Positions 3,227 to 16,158 of a DNA stretch of 64,000 bases are shown piece after piece; position 1 is the stretch's first letter; every line of letters begins with the position of its first letter. A program made the position numbers and the translations under genes. Source of the DNA: Haloterrigena turkmenica DSM 5511 (GTDB lineage: Archaea; Halobacteriota; Halobacteria; Halobacteriales; Natrialbaceae); assembly GCF_000025325.1 (NCBI RefSeq), contig NC_013743.1, forward strand, positions 620,001 to 684,000, read 5' to 3'. The notes beneath the pieces are model-generated. The model had not been told where the DNA came from. It saw only the letters and a program-made list of their open reading frames with translations, and ran no database searches.

Positions 3227-5332
3227 TTAGAGCGTTTCGGCGGTCCGAGCCTGCTCGGTCCGTCGCTCGGCCTGCTCGAGTCTGTTTCGCGCCGCCTTCG
3301 AGAGCGGTTCCGGCAGCTCGCCGCTCGCTTCTGAGAGCCGCGTCTCGACCCGCTGGAGGCGCTCGGTGACGGTTTCGAGCCGCCTGTCGGCAGTCTCTCG
3401 CTCGCCGGCCCGGGCCTCGTCGGCGGCTCTTCGCGCGGCGTCGACGACGGCCTCGAGGGCGCGCTCGAGGCCGGCAACGGCGTTCTCCGAACCGCGATCG
3501 TCGTCATCGGTAGTGGTGTCGTCATCGTCGTTCGCGTCCGAATCGCCGTCGCGATGCGTCGAGACCGCCTCTCGCGTTTCCTCGGCGAGATCCGCCACGA
3601 ACGTCGAGAGGGACGCCGTGCCGGTCTCGGGGCGTTCGATGCGGATCGCTGACGCCGTGTCGGGGGACGGGTTGATTCGGTAGGCGCCGATAGCGTCGTC
3701 GCTGTCCCGAACCTCGGTCGTGTAGGCGCCGCCGGTGTGAACGTAGACCGCATCGCCTCCGTCCACCGCCGACTCGTACAGCCGTCCGGCGAAGTCGTCC
3801 TCGACGGCCACTGCGGAGAGGTCCGCCTCTCCCGTCCCGTCCCCGATCTCGAGTTTCGTCGCCCGATTGCGGGCGACGAGCGGAATCTCACCGTCGACGC
3901 CGGCCGCCGTCGTTCCGTCGTCCGAAACGGTGACGCGTTCGCTGTGCGGTGCGCGGCCGGCGCCGTTGACTGTCAGTCGATGGTCGCCGGCCGGGACGTC
4001 CCGGAGAACGGCGACGCCGCCGAACGTCGGAACCGCTTCCGGATCGCTCTCGAGGAGCGCGACCGACTCGACGGCCGTCTCCGTCGTCATCAGTCCCTCG
4101 TCCTCCGGTGCGTCGTCGGCCGTGACCGCCTCCGTGATGCGGCTCACGACGGTGTTGATCGGCGCCGGTTCGCCGATGGCCTCGTAGCGGTCGGCCAGCG
4201 CAGCCCGATGATTCGGAGCGGTGATGTCCGCCGCCGGGTTCTCGTAACGGGACTGGTCCCACGGCGTCTCTGTCGCCGTGATGTGGCCGGCGACGGCGTC
4301 CTCGACCGCGTCGGGAACGTCGAACTCGAAGCTCAACTGGGGCCCGGTGAACGCCGCGATGTGTTCGATCTCGCCGGTCGGAACGAGCTCGTACTCGATG
4401 TCGGCGTCGCCCTCCCGCTCGCGGTGTCGGAAGACGAGTCCCGTCTCGCGGGTCGGCAGATCCGTCGGCGGCGACGTCAGCGCGTCGTACGACCGGATCG
4501 TCAGCTCGTCGTCGATCAGCGACTCGCGAGTGACCGACGGCAAGCGCTCGTGATCGTAGAGCGGGCCGCCCTCGTACTCCGGAACGACGTAGGGGAGCCG
4601 CGAGCCCTCGTCCCGCGGCAGTCCGTACGCGATCGGGAGTTCGACGTCCGCGAGGTCCGCGACGCCGTCGATCGTCGCGTTCGTGACGTCCGCCAGCAGG
4701 TCCTCGAGGGCGACCCGCTGGAACCGATCGGGGACGTCGTTGACCGAGAGCGCGCTCGAGTGCGAGCCGAGTTCCGAGAGGATGCGCGGAACCGCCTCCG
4801 GCTCGGGGTCGAGGAACTCGTTGTTCGGCGCCTTCCGGGAGTGCGAACTGGCGACGTACAGTTGCGGCTCGTCGGTTTCGGTATCGACGAAGACGTGCAG
4901 CACTTCCCAGTCGTGCCAATGGAAGTTCGTCGTGAACTGGTCGAACGCCGAGTAGAACCAGAACTGGACCGCGGCCAGCGGCGACTCCTCGTACTCGACC
5001 GCGCGATAGAACACCGTCGGATCCGGCGGATCGCCCGCGCCGTACCGCTCGTGATAGCCGTCGAGGGCGTCGAACCCGTCGACGACGGGTTCCCCGTCGC
5101 GCTCGCTGGTGTACGGTCGCGGATCCGTCGGAAACCACGGCTCGTGGACGTCGAAGTACAGCGTCGGGGCGAATTCCCTCGCCAACTCCTCGGCCGCTTC
5201 GTCGTCCAACCGGCTGGTCTGCCCGTCGCGCTCTCTCGTGAGCGCCGAACAGCCGGCCACAGCGACCCCGCTCGCACCGGCGAGCGCGCCGAGGACGGTC
5301 CGGCGATCGACGCCCGTAGCATCGTCGGTCAC
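3227..5332 (-). CDS. large Tat lipoprotein with HDWE motif and coiled-coil tail
   Basis: The start is GTG. The leader has a twin-arginine motif (VDRRTVLGALAGA) followed by a lipobox (VAVAGC), so the 701-residue protein should be exported folded and lipid-anchored through Cys. The N-terminal third contains EFAPTLYFDVHEPWFPTD, FWFYSAFDQFTTNFHWHDWE and YVASSHS. The HWHDWE block followed by a Ser-His motif recalls the metal-binding GHRHDWE of the NPP1/NLP fold and the related Vps62 (DUF946) domain; that link is inference from short motifs. The middle looks like a beta-sandwich region. Near residue 585 there is an Asp-rich linker, then a heptad-like helical tail rich in Arg, Glu and Ala. Confidence 0.7.
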   Translation of the reverse strand: MTDDATGVDRRTVLGALAGASGVAVAGCSALTRERDGQTSRLDDEAAEELAREFAPTLYFDVHEPWFPTDPRPYTSERDGEPVVDGFDALDGYHERYGAGDPPDPTVFYRAVEYEESPLAAVQFWFYSAFDQFTTNFHWHDWEVLHVFVDTETDEPQLYVASSHSRKAPNNEFLDPEPEAVPRILSELGSHSSALSVNDVPDRFQRVALEDLLADVTNATIDGVADLADVELPIAYGLPRDEGSRLPYVVPEYEGGPLYDHERLPSVTRESLIDDELTIRSYDALTSPPTDLPTRETGLVFRHREREGDADIEYELVPTGEIEHIAAFTGPQLSFEFDVPDAVEDAVAGHITATETPWDQSRYENPAADITAPNHRAALADRYEAIGEPAPINTVVSRITEAVTADDAPEDEGLMTTETAVESVALLESDPEAVPTFGGVAVLRDVPAGDHRLTVNGAGRAPHSERVTVSDDGTTAAGVDGEIPLVARNRATKLEIGDGTGEADLSAVAVEDDFAGRLYESAVDGGDAVYVHTGGAYTTEVRDSDDAIGAYRINPSPDTASAIRIERPETGTASLSTFVADLAEETREAVSTHRDGDSDANDDDDTTTDDDDRGSENAVAGLERALEAVVDAARRAADEARAGERETADRRLETVTERLQRVETRLSEASGELPEPLSKAARNRLEQAERRTEQARTAETL

Positions 5333-6998: not shown

Positions 6999-8036
6999 TC
7001 ACTCCCAGTCGATATCTTCGCCGCGACTCGAGTCTCGGAGGATGAATGGGCCGATCGCCAGCGTTCGCTTGGCCATCGTCGCGATCCGCAGGATGAACGC
7101 GATCAGCAGGAGGAACGGGGTGACGGCGACGGTCGAGGCCGCTGCGACGATCCAGACGAGGGCGTCGACCCCGAGATAGGTCCCGACCACGGCGTCGGCG
7201 TCGAAGAAGAGCAGCATCGCCATCGTGACCACCAGCGCGGGGACGGCGACGTACATCATCGCCCGCGAGAGGTTGATCAGTTCCCACTGGAAGTACAGCG
7301 TCTTGAAGTGCTCACGGGCGAGGCCGAACAGCTTCAGCGACTCGAGGAGGTCGTCGTAGGCCTCGTTGGCCTCGTCGGTGAAGGAGTCGGCGTGGGAGTT
7401 CTTGATCCGACGGGCCCGGAATATCTTCCAGGAGTAGTTGTAGTCCAGCGCGGCCTTGACGACCTCGTAGGTGCCGAAATCGGCGTCCTCGAGGTCGTCG
7501 CGGATCGAGTCGGCGTGGGTCGTGACGTTGTCGACGAAGTTGTCGACGCGCTCTTTGAGCTCCTCGTCTTGGCTCTCCGAGACGGCCTCGCGGAAGTCGG
7601 TCGCCCGGTCCTCGGAGGCCGCGATTATCGCCTGGGCGAACGACGCCGGCTCCGGCGGGCTGATCGGCGCGTCGATCGAGCTCTCGACGTCCGTCCGAAA
7701 CTCGAGGGCGCCGTCGAGGCGCTCGCGCTGGTCTTCGACGGCGCCGAGCTCCTGTGAGAGCACCAGCGAGTTGATCGTGACCACGAGCGTGACGCCGGTG
7801 ATCAGTGCGGTCGTCAGCGCCTGAAAGAGCGTTTCGACCGGATCGGCGCTCCCCATGAGCGCCCGCAGCGAGACGGGGCTGGCCCGGGCGACGACGAGCA
7901 GGCCGACGAAGACGAACAGCATGAGTCCCGCGGTGATCAGCCATCGGTTCGCGTTCAACAGGAGGGTATGCTTCAGCGTCGGTGACTCGCTGCGCTCGGC
8001 CATCGTGTCGCTGGGTTGAGAGCCGTCGCCACTCAT
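6999..8036 (-). CDS. four-helix membrane protein, array paralogue A
   Basis: This is one of four related proteins of 342-350 residues encoded side by side. Two transmembrane helices lie in the first 95 residues (WLITAGLMLFVFVGLLVVA and ALITGVTLVVTINSLVLSQ). A soluble, mostly helical domain of about 150 residues follows, then two more helices near 250-270 and 285-312. Signatures shared by the paralogues are SQELGAVEDQRER after helix 2, ALDYNYSWKI in the soluble domain, REHFKTLYFQWELINLSR before helix 3, and a closing ILRIATMAKRTLAIGPFILR. I do not recognise the family. The even number of helices places both ends and the domain on the same side, probably the cytoplasm. Confidence 0.8.
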   Translation of the reverse strand: MSGDGSQPSDTMAERSESPTLKHTLLLNANRWLITAGLMLFVFVGLLVVARASPVSLRALMGSADPVETLFQALTTALITGVTLVVTINSLVLSQELGAVEDQRERLDGALEFRTDVESSIDAPISPPEPASFAQAIIAASEDRATDFREAVSESQDEELKERVDNFVDNVTTHADSIRDDLEDADFGTYEVVKAALDYNYSWKIFRARRIKNSHADSFTDEANEAYDDLLESLKLFGLAREHFKTLYFQWELINLSRAMMYVAVPALVVTMAMLLFFDADAVVGTYLGVDALVWIVAAASTVAVTPFLLLIAFILRIATMAKRTLAIGPFILRDSSRGEDIDWE

Positions 8037-8117
8037 CGCTCGAGTCGGCCGATACCAGCCCCGCCGGGAAATAGCTACGGCAGGCGTCGGGGAACCGAAC
8101 GCGGCGGGTCGACCGAG

Positions 8118-9146
8118 TCAGCCCAGATCCTCGTCCCGCTCGGACTCCCGCAGGATGAACGGTCCCATCGCGAGCGTCCGCTTCGCGACGGTGGCGATCC
8201 GCAGGATGTAGACGATGAAGACGACGAACGGAGCGATCCCGATCACGAACCCCGCGCTGGTCAGCCAGACGAGGTTGTCGATGCCGAGGAACGTCCCCAG
8301 GAGCGCGGTCCCGTCGATGTACATCATCAACAGCGCCATCGCCGTAAGCGCGGGCACCGAGACGTACAGCAGCGCCCGCGAGAGGTTGATCAGCTCCCAC
8401 TGGAAGTACAGCGTCTTGAAGTGCTCGCGGGCCGGACCGAAGAACTTCAGGAGTTGGATCATCTCGTCGAGTTCGTCGTCTGCCTCCTCGGATAAGTCGT
8501 CACCGTGATCGGCGCGGAGCTTGCGCGCGTCGTAGATCTTCCGCGAGTAGTTGAAGTTGAGCGCGTTCCAGATCACGTCGAACGTGCCGAACTGGGCGTC
8601 CTCGAGGTCTTCCTTGACGACCTGTGCGTTCTCGACCGCGTCGTCGACGTAGTCGGCGACCTTCTCCTGAATCTCGTCGCCGTGGTCCTCGGACACCGTT
8701 CGCTCGAGGTCGTTCGCCTCTTCTTCGACGCCGTCGACGAGTTCGTAGAGGAACGCCGCGGGTTCCGGCGGGCTCACGTCCTCGTGCTCGAGCGAGTCCT
8801 CGATGTCGTGCCGGAAGTCCATCGCCTCCTGCATGCGCTCTCGCTGGTCGCCGACCGCGCCGAGTTCCTGGGAGAGCACTAGCTGGTTGATCGTGACGAC
8901 GATCGACGTCCCCGTGATGATCGCCCCGATGAACCCCGAGAAGATCCAGAAGGTCGCGTTGTGTTGTTCGACGAGTACACGGTGGGGCGCGAGCCCGAAC
9001 AGACTGGCCCCGACCAGTATGGCGAACACGGTCACTAGCACGGCCGCCGTGAAGAGCCAGCGGTTCAGCCGGAGCAACACCCACAGCCGTGGGCCGCCGA
9101 CGCCGGCCCGTTGACCCAACACGCCGCTCGAGTCCGAATCACTCAT
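8118..9146 (-). CDS. four-helix membrane protein, array paralogue B
   Basis: Same architecture as its neighbours: two helices near residues 30-50 and 70-95, a soluble helical domain, then two helices near 245-265 and 280-310. The block SQELGAVGDQRERMQEAMDF, the segment ALNFNYSRKIYDARKL and REHFKTLYFQWELINLSR are almost superimposable on paralogue A. The pair shares strand and is 81 bases apart, so A and B probably form one transcript with B first. The soluble domain is the most variable part, which suggests different partners or signals. Confidence 0.8.
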   Translation of the reverse strand: MSDSDSSGVLGQRAGVGGPRLWVLLRLNRWLFTAAVLVTVFAILVGASLFGLAPHRVLVEQHNATFWIFSGFIGAIITGTSIVVTINQLVLSQELGAVGDQRERMQEAMDFRHDIEDSLEHEDVSPPEPAAFLYELVDGVEEEANDLERTVSEDHGDEIQEKVADYVDDAVENAQVVKEDLEDAQFGTFDVIWNALNFNYSRKIYDARKLRADHGDDLSEEADDELDEMIQLLKFFGPAREHFKTLYFQWELINLSRALLYVSVPALTAMALLMMYIDGTALLGTFLGIDNLVWLTSAGFVIGIAPFVVFIVYILRIATVAKRTLAMGPFILRESERDEDLG

Positions 9147-9293
9147 TGCCTGCCCGAAGGGACCACGGCGGCGGGTAAAAGAATCATCCGGGCGAAAGCA
9201 ACCCCGACGTCGACGACGGCACTTCGCTCACCCGGAAGAGACGACCGCTGACGGCCAAAGGCTTGTAGGCGGGGCCATGGTACGACCGCTCCC

Positions 9294-10346
9294 ATGAGCG
9301 AGTCCGGCGAGAGCGCGAGCGAGGAGACGTCGAACACGATGGTCGACCGCGTTCACGGCGGCCGACCGATGCTGTGGTTCCTGGTCGAAGGAAACCGCGT
9401 TCTCGTCGCCGCCCTGATGCTCGCCGTTTCCTACACAATCCTCGTCGTTCTCGGCACGTTCGGCCCCGGCTCCATTTCGAAGCTGTTCGATCCCGCGCCG
9501 ATCGCCTCGACGTTCACCCCGACGATCATCGGGATCATCATGGGCGTCACGCTCGTGTTGACGTTCAACCAGTTCGTCCTCGCCGAGGAACTCGGCCCCG
9601 TCGGCGATCAGCGCGAGCGCATGGTCGGTGCGATGGAGTTCCGTCGGGACACCGAAGACGCCGTCGATCGGACGACTAGCCCCCCCGAACCCTCCGCATT
9701 CCTCCGCGGCCTCGTCGAAGCGACCGGGAACCGGGCCGCGGAACTCATCGACGCGCTCGAGTCCGATCCCGACCTCGACGAGGCGGTTCGCGAGGACGTC
9801 CGCGAGTACGCCGAGGGGATCGCCGCCGACGCCGAGCGGGTCGCCGCCGACCTCGAGGGCAAACAGTTCGGTCGGTTCGAGGTCGTCAAGGCCGCGCTGG
9901 AGTACAACTACTCCTGGAAGATCTACATCGGCAACCGGGTTCGGAACCGCCACGAGGAGGCGCTTCCCGACACCATCGACGAGCGACTCGAGGAGTTACT
10001 CGAGGTGCTCGGCTTCTTCGGACCCGCCCGCGAACACTTCAAGACGCTGTACTTTCGGTGGGAGATCATCACCCTCTCGCGGTCGCTGGCTTACCTCGCC
10101 CTACCAGCGCTGGCGGTTTCGGCGTACATGATCCTCGTATTCGAGGTGGGTGACGTGGCCGGGGTGATTGCGGGGTTCGATCAGGGACTGTTGTTCGTCG
10201 GCCTCGCCTTCGCCGTCGGCGTGATGCCCTTCGCGATCTTTCTGTCGTACATCCTCCGGGTCGTCACCGTCGCGAAGTGGACGCTCGCGATCGGCCCGTT
10301 CATCCTCCGGGAGACCGATCGGGGAGAGGACATCGGCTGGGAGTAG
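9294..10346 (+). CDS. four-helix membrane protein, array paralogue C
   Basis: This 350-residue member is transcribed away from A and B. It has the shared blocks LAEELGPVGDQRER, ALEYNYSWKIYIGNR, REHFKTLYFRWEIITLSR and YILRVVTVAKWTLAIGPFIL. The helix order is as in the others. The 147 bases between it and paralogue B must hold both divergent promoters. Its stop codon directly abuts the stop of paralogue D on the other strand, with no base between them, so the two 3' ends must overlap as RNA. Confidence 0.8.
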   Translation: MSESGESASEETSNTMVDRVHGGRPMLWFLVEGNRVLVAALMLAVSYTILVVLGTFGPGSISKLFDPAPIASTFTPTIIGIIMGVTLVLTFNQFVLAEELGPVGDQRERMVGAMEFRRDTEDAVDRTTSPPEPSAFLRGLVEATGNRAAELIDALESDPDLDEAVREDVREYAEGIAADAERVAADLEGKQFGRFEVVKAALEYNYSWKIYIGNRVRNRHEEALPDTIDERLEELLEVLGFFGPAREHFKTLYFRWEIITLSRSLAYLALPALAVSAYMILVFEVGDVAGVIAGFDQGLLFVGLAFAVGVMPFAIFLSYILRVVTVAKWTLAIGPFILRETDRGEDIGWE

Positions 10347-11396
10347 TCAGGAGTCTTCGCCGTATTCTACGTGGAAGGGGCCCTCGTCGGGATCCTTCTG
10401 GGGGACCATCGGACCGACCGAGGCAGTTCGGCGCGTGACGGTCGCGGTCCGGAGGATGTAGGAGACGAGGAGGGACAGCGGTGAGAGGCCGACAATGATC
10501 AGTCCGGTGGTGATGAACGGGAGCACGGCGACGCTGACGCTCGGTCCCGCGAAGTCGCCGTACAGGAGGCCGATCAGGATCGCGGACAGGATCGACGGCA
10601 CGCCCCAGTAGATCGTGAGCTGGGAGAATCGGGTGAGTTCCCGCTGCAGGTAGGTCGTCTTGAGCTGTTCGCGGGCCACGCCGAACAGCTTCAGGGAGTC
10701 GATCAGCTCGTCGAGACGCTCCGACGCCGTCGGCGACAGTTCGTCGCCGTACTCGCCGCGCAGGTGTGTGCCCACGTGTAGGTGCCACGCCTCGTCGTAG
10801 TTGATCGCCGCGGAGATGGCCGTGAACGAGCCGAACTCGCCCTCTTCGAGAACCTCGTCGACGCGTCCGGTCCGCTTCTGGACCGCGTTTGTGTACCGCG
10901 TAATCGGCTCGCGGACCTCGTCGTCGCTATTTTCGACCGCGTCGGCGAGGTCGGCGGCGTCGTGACGGATCGATTCGACGAGCAACTCGAGGATCCGCGT
11001 CGGCGTGGCCGGGCTCGCCGGAACCATCGCGGTCGTCGCGACCTTCCGCCGGAAGTCGATGACGCCCTCGAGGCGGTCTCGCGCTCTACCGGCCGCGCTG
11101 AACTCTTGAGAGAGGATGAGCTGGTTGACCGAAACGACTAGCGTTACCAGCGAGAACGTGCCCGCGATCATGCCGCTTGCGACGCGCGTGACGGAGTTGG
11201 GATTCGTAAACGAGATGATGCCGAGCCAGCGGAGAACGACCAGTAGCGCGAGGATGACGCCCGACAGGAGCACCGCGACCGCCACGCGGTCCCCCTCGAC
11301 GACGAACCACTCTCTGAATCCAGCCAGTACGCTCGACTGCTCCCCGACGTTTGCCCCGAAGGACTCGAGCGTCTCGTCGGTCTCAGAGGGACTCAT
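10347..11396 (-). CDS. four-helix membrane protein, array paralogue D (divergent)
   Basis: I start the protein at the internal ATG that gives MSPSETDETLESF. This makes 349 residues, equal to the paralogues, and drops an unlikely Cys-rich extension in the upstream frame. It is the most diverged member: SQEFSAAGRARDRLEGVIDF replaces SQELGAV.DQRER, REQLKTTYLQRELTRFSQ replaces REHFKTLYFQWELINLSR, and ILRTATVTRRTASVGPMV ends the last helix. The helix topology is kept, so function is probably related but specialised. Confidence 0.78.
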   Translation of the reverse strand: MSPSETDETLESFGANVGEQSSVLAGFREWFVVEGDRVAVAVLLSGVILALLVVLRWLGIISFTNPNSVTRVASGMIAGTFSLVTLVVSVNQLILSQEFSAAGRARDRLEGVIDFRRKVATTAMVPASPATPTRILELLVESIRHDAADLADAVENSDDEVREPITRYTNAVQKRTGRVDEVLEEGEFGSFTAISAAINYDEAWHLHVGTHLRGEYGDELSPTASERLDELIDSLKLFGVAREQLKTTYLQRELTRFSQLTIYWGVPSILSAILIGLLYGDFAGPSVSVAVLPFITTGLIIVGLSPLSLLVSYILRTATVTRRTASVGPMVPQKDPDEGPFHVEYGEDS

Positions 11397-11646
11397 GGCG
11401 ACACGTTCCACGGACCCGACAATAAGGGCCTGCATTGCACACTGCTCGCAGCCCCACCGGACCACAGCGGAGTCGACGGGAGCGCCGGTCGTCCCGACGA
11501 ACAGTCAGGACGCTCGATACTCGGCCGTTCGCGAGCGCTCGGAAACTGCCGCTTCAGGGCCTACACTGAAATGCGTCGACAGTGTCGGTCCGATACATGC
11601 TCGGTGACGGAACTTACGCCCTGCTGGCGAGGGTGGTGCGACGGCG

Positions 11647-12156
11647 ATGACCCGACCGGAGTCGACGAGCCGACGCCGACTTCTCGCGGCGGTCGGCGCG
11701 GGCGTCTCGGCCGCGGTCGCCGGTTGTACCGGCAGCGGGGGCCTCGGCGGCGAACCCTCCTACGAGGACGGCAACGGCGTCGAGATAAACGCCAGCAACG
11801 TCTCCAACCGGACGACGTCGGAGATGTCCACGGCGGCCGCGCTCGCCAACCAGCAGCCGTCCCAGTCCGTGACGCCGCTGGATCCCCTCTCCGTAACCGA
11901 CCACCAGTTCGTCGTCGAGGGAGGCTATCTCGGCTCGACCGTGCAGGGAACCGTCGAGAACACGGGCAGCGATCGGATCCAGATCGTCGAAGTGCGAACC
12001 CGGATCTACGACGACGCCGGCAACCTGCTCGGCCGCTATCTCGCGACCACCGGCGATCTCGACGGGGGCGAGACCTGGGAGTTCCAGGTGATCGTCCTCG
12101 AGGCGCCGTCGGACGTCGCCGCCTACGACATCGCCGTGCTGGGAACACCGTCCTAA
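11647..12156 (+). CDS. Tat lipoprotein with FxLYD domain
   Basis: The leader has SRRRLLAAVGAGVSAAVAGC: twin arginines, a hydrophobic stretch and a lipobox ending in Cys, so the 169-residue protein should be lipid-anchored outside the cell. After an Asn/Thr/Ser-rich spacer, the C-terminal 90 residues match the FxLYD beta-sandwich: VQGTVENTGSDRIQIVEVRTRIYDDAGNLLGRY, then GDLDGGETWEFQVI. This domain is common on haloarchaeal surface lipoproteins; no enzyme activity is known for it. It stands alone between convergent genes. Confidence 0.82.
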   Translation: MTRPESTSRRRLLAAVGAGVSAAVAGCTGSGGLGGEPSYEDGNGVEINASNVSNRTTSEMSTAAALANQQPSQSVTPLDPLSVTDHQFVVEGGYLGSTVQGTVENTGSDRIQIVEVRTRIYDDAGNLLGRYLATTGDLDGGETWEFQVIVLEAPSDVAAYDIAVLGTPS

Positions 12157-12192: not shown

Positions 12193-12552
12193 TCAGCCGG
12201 ACTCCTCGAGGAGTTCGTCGGCGACGCCCTCGGTGACGAGTTCGAAGGCGATATCGAGCGCGTACGCGGGACGTCCTTTTCCGGTCGGCGACGTCTCTTC
12301 GGTTTCGACTTCCTCGACGAACCCCTCGTCCTCGAGTCGGTAGAGCGACCGCATCACGTCCGCCTCGGTGAGCGTCCCGATGACGCCCACGTCGACGCCC
12401 TCGAGTTGAGTCCTACAGACGCGTCGCAGTTCGTGGGTCTGGACGGGCGTCTCGCCGCGCCGGTGCAGTTCGGCGACGCCGAGTAAGACGACCTGATTGG
12501 TCAGCGAAATTTCGTCGAACGCGTCCATATTCGTCTCCGTATCCGTGCCCAT
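12193..12552 (-). CDS. winged-helix protein resembling the Orc1/Cdc6 C-terminal domain
   Basis: The 119-residue protein is a stand-alone winged helix. The order LTNQVVLLGVAELHRRGETPVQTHELRRVCR, then LTEADVMRSLYRLEDEGFVEEV, and a GKGRPAYALDIAF wing closely follow the C-terminal DNA-binding domain of archaeal Orc1/Cdc6 initiators, without the AAA+ part. It might regulate transcription or be an initiator domain that has become independent. The gene sits just after pspA on the same strand, with a gap of about 120 bases. Confidence 0.7.
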   Translation of the reverse strand: MGTDTETNMDAFDEISLTNQVVLLGVAELHRRGETPVQTHELRRVCRTQLEGVDVGVIGTLTEADVMRSLYRLEDEGFVEEVETEETSPTGKGRPAYALDIAFELVTEGVADELLEESG

Positions 12553-12670: not shown

Positions 12671-13510
12671 TCAGGCGTTCTCCTCGTCTTGGAGCTCCGC
12701 GAGTTCGGCCTCGACTTCGCTGTCGTCGACCTCCGCTTCCATGTCCTCGATGTCCTCCTCGACGGCCTCGCTCTCGACGTCGCCGGCCGGTTCGGCGTCG
12801 GTCTCGCCGCCGCCCTCTCCCATCTCGGATTTCAGCGTCTCGAGTTCGGCTTCGACGCCGCTGTCGGTCTCCAGCTGCTCGAGTTCGCGGTCGATGTCGT
12901 CCTTGTCCGAGAGGACGTCCTCGAACGCGCCGGACTCCTGGAGCTCGTCCATGGCGGCGGCGCGAGCTTCCATGTCCTCGGTCTTCTCCTCGGCGCGCTC
13001 GATGGCGCGACCGACGTCCTCGAACTCCTCGCCCGTGGCCGTCACCGCCTCCGAGACCTGCGAACTCGCCTTCGCGGCCTCGTGGCGGGCCTTCATCGTC
13101 TCCTTCTTGGTCCGGAACTCCTCGATGCGGCTCTGAAGCGTGTTCTTCTGCTCGATCAGCTTGTCCTGTTGCTGCTGGAGATCGGAGATCTGGCGCTCCA
13201 GATCCTCGATCTGGTTCATCTTCGTCTTCTTCTTCTCGAGTGCGCGCCGCGCCAGATCCTCCCGGCCCTGCTGGACCGCGGTCCGGGCCTGATCGTTGTG
13301 TTTGTCGACGTTCTCCTCGAGGCGCCGTTTCTGCATCTCGAGGCGCTTTTTCTGCGTGGTCAGATCCGCGATGCCCCGTTTGACCTGCTGGAGCTGGTCG
13401 CGCATCTGCTCGTAGGAGTAGTCGAGCGTCTCCGTCGGATCCTCGGCGCGGTTGAGCACCGAGTTGAGCTTCGACCGGATGATGTAGGAGGTCCGAGAGA
13501 GGATGCCCAT
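12671..13510 (-). CDS. PspA/IM30 family membrane-stress protein
   Basis: The 279-residue protein starts MGILSRTSYIIRSKLNSVLNRAEDP, the amphipathic N-terminal helix typical of PspA/Vipp1. A long coiled coil follows (QQVKRGIADLTTQKKRLEMQ and DLERQISDLQQQQDKLIEQK), then a Glu/Asp-rich tail. PspA proteins are ESCRT-III relatives that bind and stabilise membranes under stress. The acidic C-terminal extension of about 60 residues is longer than in the bacterial protein, which is common in haloarchaea. Its position next to the four-helix membrane-protein array may be meaningful. Confidence 0.9.
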   Translation of the reverse strand: MGILSRTSYIIRSKLNSVLNRAEDPTETLDYSYEQMRDQLQQVKRGIADLTTQKKRLEMQKRRLEENVDKHNDQARTAVQQGREDLARRALEKKKTKMNQIEDLERQISDLQQQQDKLIEQKNTLQSRIEEFRTKKETMKARHEAAKASSQVSEAVTATGEEFEDVGRAIERAEEKTEDMEARAAAMDELQESGAFEDVLSDKDDIDRELEQLETDSGVEAELETLKSEMGEGGGETDAEPAGDVESEAVEEDIEDMEAEVDDSEVEAELAELQDEENA

Positions 13511-15208: not shown

Positions 15209-15262
15209 ATGAGGAATCGGCACCGAGACGAACTCGATCAGCGCGTTCGCTGTGACCGATGA
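15209..15262 (+). other. 17-codon mini-ORF overlapping the FRG gene start
   Basis: A perfect Shine-Dalgarno core (aggagg, 15199-15204) lies four bases before an ATG. The short frame reads MRNRHRDELDQRVRCDR and stops at a TGA that overlaps the ATG of the FRG gene (ATGA). If translated, it would couple translation of the FRG protein to that of a basic leader peptide. Such overlaps also arise by chance in G/C-rich DNA. Confidence 0.35.
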
Positions 15263-16158
15263 CCGACGAGACGGTCTCCCAGTCCACCGTCCGGGCCGAA
15301 TCGTGGGCGGAGCTGCAGGAACTGGTCACCGCGGAGATGTGGATGCCCGACATCGCTCGACACCGCTCTCCGTTCGTGTTCCGGGGGGTCCCCTTCCGGG
15401 ACCACACCCTCGAGACCTCGATCAAGCGGTTCGTCGGCGACTCGGGCGAGTGGAAACTCGAGTCGCTGCTGTTGCGGAACTTCCACCAGTACGCGGTCAA
15501 CGAGATCGAGGAGTTCGAGTCGGTCTGGCACCTGCTCTCGATCGCCGAACACTACGGCCTGCCGACCCGGCTGCTGGACTGGTCGTTCTCGCCACTGGTC
15601 GCGACCTACTTCGCGGTCCGGGACGGCGACACCGCCCACGACGGCGCGGTCTGGTCGGTCGACTACCGACAGCTCCACGATACGCTGCCCGAGCACTACA
15701 ACCGCGTCTTAGAGCGGACCGAGACGGACATGCTCGACGTGCATCTGCTCTCGAACGCGACCCTCGAGTCCGACGCGGAGACGGCCGACGCCGCTGACGG
15801 GGCGATGCGCGACCTGAACGACGTCTCCCGGCTGGACGACCTCTGGAGCGAGCGCTGGGGCGTCGACGCCGACGAGGCGGTCGACGACCAGTACGTCGTC
15901 TTCTTCCGGCCGCCGGCGATCGACGACCGCATCGCCAACCAGTCGGCCGTCTTCTCGTTCCAGTCGGACCCCCGACTCGCCCTCGATCGCTGGCTCGAGG
16001 AGCGCCCGGACTGCTACCGGAAGATCGTGATCCCGGGCGAGCGCAAACTCGAGTTCCGAGACAAACTCGACCAGATGAACGTCAACCACCGGACGCTGTT
16101 TCCCGACCTCGAGGGACTGACGACCTGGCTCAAGCAGTACTATCAGCCACAGGAGTGA
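15259..16158 (+). CDS. FRG-domain protein
   Basis: The 299-residue protein carries the FRG domain (named for a Phe-Arg-Gly motif): PFVFRGVPFRDHTLETSIKRF near residue 34, followed by the diagnostic WHLLSIAEHYGLPTRLLDWS and SPLVATYFAV near 95-125. A C-terminal half with DDQYVVFFRPPAIDDRIANQ, SAVFSFQSDPR and YRKIVIPGERK matches the rest of the family. FRG proteins occur in bacteria, archaea and phages and are often near mobile or defence genes; their biochemistry is not settled. The gene follows a repeat-rich spacer and a possible coupled mini-ORF, and its product is soluble with no signal peptide. Confidence 0.85.
   Translation: MTDETVSQSTVRAESWAELQELVTAEMWMPDIARHRSPFVFRGVPFRDHTLETSIKRFVGDSGEWKLESLLLRNFHQYAVNEIEEFESVWHLLSIAEHYGLPTRLLDWSFSPLVATYFAVRDGDTAHDGAVWSVDYRQLHDTLPEHYNRVLERTETDMLDVHLLSNATLESDAETADAADGAMRDLNDVSRLDDLWSERWGVDADEAVDDQYVVFFRPPAIDDRIANQSAVFSFQSDPRLALDRWLEERPDCYRKIVIPGERKLEFRDKLDQMNVNHRTLFPDLEGLTTWLKQYYQPQE

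Follow-up and report, generated by a model that had tools for sequence, protein, structure and literature searches.

Four neighboring genes of Haloterrigena turkmenica DSM 5511 encode similar membrane proteins and lie near pspA, which raises the question of what family these proteins form and whether their position has a functional meaning. We analyzed them within a stretch of 64,000 nucleotides of this genome, hereafter called the window, whose numbering is used for the following features:

6999-8036, minus strand: member B, 345 aa, four transmembrane (TM) helices predicted
8118-9146, minus strand: member A, 342 aa, modelled with pLDDT 88.6
9294-10346, plus strand: member C, 350 aa, inverted, its clade long-branched and confined to Natrialbaceae
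10347-11396, minus strand: member D, 349 aa, of the four the closest to pspA, modelled with pLDDT 87.6
11647-12156, plus strand: gene for a 169-aa product whose N terminus resembles that of a lipoprotein, between D and the pspA/winged-helix genes, recurrent in Natrialbaceae
12193-12552, minus strand: 119-aa winged-helix-like protein with a weak Cdc6_C match, directly downstream of pspA
12671-13510, minus strand: pspA (PspA/IM30 family; Pfam PF04012, E 2.7e-34), a conserved neighbor of the family

The array of four paralogs in mixed orientation next to a PspA gene had been read from the sequence in the original prediction, and our data agree with it. The paralogy is real, with full-length pairwise identities to B of 46, 43, and 31% for the other three proteins, far above chance, and in all four the hydropathy profile shows hydrophobic stretches close to either end, separated by a long polar region. 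A and B share a strand, with A upstream by 81 bp, which makes a two-gene unit likely. C and A are divergent, with a gap of 147 bp, and C and D are convergent, with abutting stop codons. The start of D is the ATG at 11396, and its open frame extends to a GTG at 11465. Because the organism is an archaeon, the result of a sigma-70 promoter scan carries no meaning. The closest named match to the window comes from Haloterrigena salina (90% protein identity). Elsewhere in the window, the product of 3227-5332 (minus strand) has 701 aa, begins like a lipoprotein, and matches no Pfam family with confidence.

The original suggestion that the proteins belong to no known family was upheld. The four window proteins gave no significant match in Pfam or NCBIfam, and a scan of 94 diverse members against Pfam returned scattered weak matches only. 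PADLOC had no match for the family, PHROGs gave two weak partial ones, and the best hit of a profile search against PDB sequences was a coiled coil at E 0.016. None of the profile searches (Pfam, NCBIfam, and hhalign against bestrophin and DUF2254) placed the family in a well-characterized one. A viral origin was rejected, as no viral or phage relative was found in IMG/VR and phage records. Plasmid-borne relatives occur in 67 PLSDB records and, among the matches listed, the annotated ones are called "hypothetical protein". "Stop inside" flags on genome matches resembled read-through, but where checked, the stop was the natural terminator at the end of the alignment.

Of 242 Halobacteria genomes sampled, 227 contain the family. 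Across the phylum, 73 of 393 sampled genomes have it, namely 71 Halobacteria plus one strong (G259) and one weak (G281) case. The strong case, from a class of three genomes outside Halobacteria, carries its member at C2:322051-323064 (L123, L236), lacks PspA, and possibly reflects a transfer between halophiles. The genome of H. turkmenica itself holds 11 near-full copies as well as fragments, and smaller contigs carry several of these. The integral membrane proteins thus form an unnamed family, essentially restricted to haloarchaea, and the two models described below match no solved fold.

AlphaFold2 modelled A (94 sequences, pTM 0.83) and D (79 sequences, pTM 0.82) confidently, and both models bear out the predicted topology of two helices, a soluble helical domain, and two more helices. 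Both begin with one or more N-terminal helices, followed by TM1 and by a long TM2 that extends into the domain; about five helices then form a bundle, and after it come a helix of 57-59 residues that ends as TM3 and a long TM4. Foldseek found no match at E <= 0.001 for either model in the PDB, nor for the A model in BFVD. Lysine and arginine make up a fraction of 0.056 of the TM1-TM2 outer loop and 0.011 of the TM3-TM4 outer loop, against 0.156 and 0.146 of the termini. This poverty of the outer loops relative to the termini suggests, together with the models, that the termini and the helical-bundle domain are cytoplasmic, on the side of PspA.

Conservation was followed over the 94 sequences in the residue numbering of A. 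Three positions are invariant in all of them, namely R29 (ahead of TM1), P306 (in TM4), and R316 (after TM4), and S256, P129, R240, T324, W22, P126, K244, T245, and S92 are conserved in at least 90%. TM2 bears the conserved N87, Q88, and S92. Most of the best-conserved positions are found at the cytoplasmic membrane surface and are not spread through the helices. Three membrane-proximal motifs stand out, given here for A with their mean pairwise identity among the four genes:

8829-8888, minus strand: motif 1, residues 87-106, NQLVLSQELGAVGDQRERMQ, cytoplasmic extension of TM2, identity 0.59
8379-8483, minus strand: motif 2, residues 222-256, ending in FFGPAREHFKTLYFQWELINLS, helix entering TM3, identity 0.59
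8157-8201, minus strand: motif 3, residues 316-330, RIATVAKRTLAMGPF, C-terminal to TM4, identity 0.62

The motifs quoted in the original prediction are good in B, A, and C; in D they are weak, reading SQEFSAAGRARDR, REQLKTTYLQRELTRFSQ, and ASVGPMVPQ. Its claim that the soluble domains vary most does not agree with our data: mean pairwise identity is 0.32 for the soluble core, against 0.29-0.31 for the TM helices and 0.16-0.26 for the outer loops and N tail. Since variation in the core is similar to that in the TM helices and is exceeded by that in the outer loops and N tail, the idea that divergent soluble domains serve different partners is unsupported.

The comparison of neighborhoods across genomes identified pspA as the commonest neighbor of family genes, found within 6 kb in 61 fetched family loci and topping every other neighbor cluster. 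We searched 59 Halobacteria genomes with PF04012 and the family profile and measured distances. Encoding together with pspA across lineages, as a Psp membrane partner would show, was observed in at least 33 of the 47 genomes holding both genes, spanning six taxonomic families, with a family gene no more than 3.2 kb from pspA, whereas copy number and genome size predict about 0.28; these genomes are not independent events, since they share ancestry and their synteny is partly inherited. In at least 27 of the linked genomes (at least 33), the family gene lies downstream of pspA on the same strand. From the pspA stop codon to the start of the family domain there are 80-190 bp in 14 loci, the spacing that mostly prevails outside Natrialbaceae, leaving almost no space between the two genes. 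What surrounds the pair changes even though the pair itself is retained, with alpha/beta hydrolase, CTP synthase, or other genes upstream and ThrRS, DUF1611, enolase-like, or other genes downstream; such changing flanks are a better argument for the pairing than the raw excess of genomes. The link to PspA is therefore stronger than the original prediction knew. In the window, an opposite-strand gene stands between pspA and the array, and the 119-aa winged-helix-like gene stays beside pspA in many Natrialbaceae. Another gene of the window (15259-16158, plus strand) encodes an FRG-domain protein matching the PADLOC candidate defence models PDC-S15 (E 1.2e-48), and it recurs near pspA in several Natrialbaceae.

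The reading that we tentatively prefer is that the family is a haloarchaeal membrane partner of PspA, acting as anchor or sensor, duplicated in Natrialbaceae into the ordered set D-(C)-A-B. The family gene would be co-transcribed with pspA, and duplication of the ancestral gene in Natrialbaceae would have produced the ordered set downstream of it. The conserved residues at the cytoplasmic membrane surface (in A, R29, S92, R240, K244-T245, S256, R316, and T324) form a conserved collar that may be in physical contact with PspA, either holding or releasing it or signalling membrane damage to it.

In Natrialbaceae, pspA is followed, in constant order and orientation, by D, sometimes by an inverted C with another paralog, and then by A and B; where D stands beside pspA, it is usually accompanied by A, B, or both. 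This order is compatible with the heteromeric assembly that had been proposed, and a partner paralog is not required, because single-copy genomes exist outside Natrialbaceae. The family tree was built by a quick method and midpoint-rooted, with 33 of its 110 inner forks weak. The window genes fall into four supported clades; the two that contain C and D are of Natrialbaceae type and have long stems, which indicates that the duplications are old. Linkage to pspA is clustered on the tree, with 22 changes against a mean of 36.6 after shuffling and none of 500 shuffles as low.

The imperfect linkage between PspA and the family, the many unlinked copies, and the opposite-strand gene between pspA and the array in the window are real points against a PspA partner. 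Three genomes hold the family without PspA (G023, G039, and the non-haloarchaeal G259), eight sampled genomes hold PspA without the family, and the co-occurrence of the two is not significant among the sampled genomes (Fisher p 0.40). About half of the rows of the tree are not linked to pspA, including many divergent clades with plasmid copies among them. The survival of the family without PspA, even outside Halobacteria, its many unlinked and plasmid copies, its near confinement to Halobacteria, and the polar residues of TM2 would also suit a self-standing protein of membrane or osmotic stress, for example a stress-gated channel or pore, co-regulated with pspA and free of any physical partnership. 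We consider this somewhat unlikely: the channel or mechanosensor activity originally proposed found no matching channel family, neither homology to bestrophins nor their fold was recovered, and conservation is concentrated at the cytoplasmic membrane surface more than through the helices.

The contexts of divergent copies (DUF389, ArsP-like permease, YCF48-like propeller, SDR, DJ-1, PEBP) indicate no consistent function, and one divergent clade (L086, L088, L096, and L104) is found in a conserved gene cluster that also encodes an ArsP-like permease, a YCF48-like propeller, and a DUF389 membrane protein. In H. turkmenica, a 177-aa paralog (L045:7277-7810; C1:1729276-1729809) is devoid of TM3 and of the soluble domain, which an in-frame deletion appears to have removed, and the syntenic copy of another genome (G028, L106:5190-5980) is split in two. 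Both look like decay, although the intact short frame in H. turkmenica is curious. A 1.6-kb stretch with one paralog is 96% identical between the chromosome contig C1 and the smaller contig C3 (L040:5103-6688 and L042:7127-8714). The fetched flanks show no similarity outside this stretch, which suggests a recent transfer of essentially the gene alone. The small contigs C3 and C4 also have two divergent paralogs in common (L043 and L044; 72% and 91% DNA identity), in differing arrangement.

Proximity to pspA might also be inherited synteny without functional meaning, the family having an unrelated role in, for instance, lipids, the S-layer, or transport. Genomes with only one of the two genes would agree with this, and the alpha/beta hydrolase and other neighbors are likewise retained in many loci. 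Nevertheless, the pair is tight and its orientation constant while both flanks differ between families, and the linked genomes far exceed the expected number, making inherited synteny a quite unlikely account.

That the proteins are divergent members of a known multi-TM family is extremely improbable, whether bestrophin, DUF2254, or LiaI-LiaF-TM is considered. Bestrophin chloride channels have two TM helices, a cytoplasmic helical part, and two further TM helices, and we took this lead seriously because the order of elements is similar; bestrophins also occupy ranks 1, 2, 3, and 11 of the Foldseek list for the D model. Those matches, however, have E values of 0.17-0.55, TM scores of 0.16-0.20, and rmsd of 15-21 A (the best, E 0.17, with TM 0.17 and rmsd 16 A), and no bestrophin appears among the best 50 listed for the A model. 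BLASTP with Escherichia coli YneE (PF01062) gave at best E 0.14 over 23 residues, and hhalign a probability of 0.3% against a nine-sequence bestrophin profile. DUF2254 (PF10011), whose TM2 is superficially similar, had no Pfam match and a probability of 0.2-0.6% against a thin profile, and LiaI-LiaF-TM (PF22571) matched 2 of the 94 members, not significantly (best E 0.034).

Unrelated membrane partners of PspA in bacteria, YdjG/YdjH and PspB/PspC, offer a precedent for the collar role proposed here. In Bacillus subtilis, YdjG and YdjH, encoded with pspA in the pspA-ydjGHI operon, anchor PspA and are required for its recruitment to the membrane (PMC8581546). Compared by published description, the haloarchaeal proteins resemble them as integral membrane proteins encoded with pspA, a functional analogy, but no SPFH partner gene was recognized beside pspA here. 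To PspC and PspB the family may be likened by analogy alone, as a membrane partner of PspA; its members have a large helical domain and four TM helices where PspC has a small PspC domain. PspC (PF04024) was absent from all 59 Halobacteria genomes, several of which hold the family, although 7 of the 14 control genomes gave a positive result in the identical search. The LiaI-LiaF-TM_PspC model stayed below its cut-off in every Halobacteria genome searched, and the four window proteins had no match to the PspC domain, just as family members in general have no significant Pfam match.

The Psp networks of archaea are largely unknown, and PspA of Haloferax volcanii is regulated by salt (PMC9239133). 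In the same species, the TM protein Hvo2637, encoded downstream of pspA, weakly resembles bPH_4 and EphA2_TM and was assigned to no described family (PMC9239133). Its arrangement fits the pspA pairing observed here, and Hvo2637 is a candidate member of the family. Keyword searches of a second survey yielded no haloarchaeal PspA partner (PMC11237479). A broader possibility, which we regard as rather unlikely, is that this undescribed family, with a fold absent from the PDB, represents a haloarchaeal branch of the Psp/ESCRT-III-like membrane repair machinery that replaces PspB/PspC, its expansion in Natrialbaceae providing paralogous stress receptors that feed one PspA. If that were true, Halobacteria would be a further lineage in which the membrane half of an ancient repair system has been replaced.

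Archaeal PspA is known to react to salinity, and how it meets the membrane is a gap that this family could address. If its link to PspA holds, it would be another instance of lineage-specific membrane partners of PspA, and, as a class-wide, unannotated family paired with pspA, it provides a concrete gene to delete in a tractable species.
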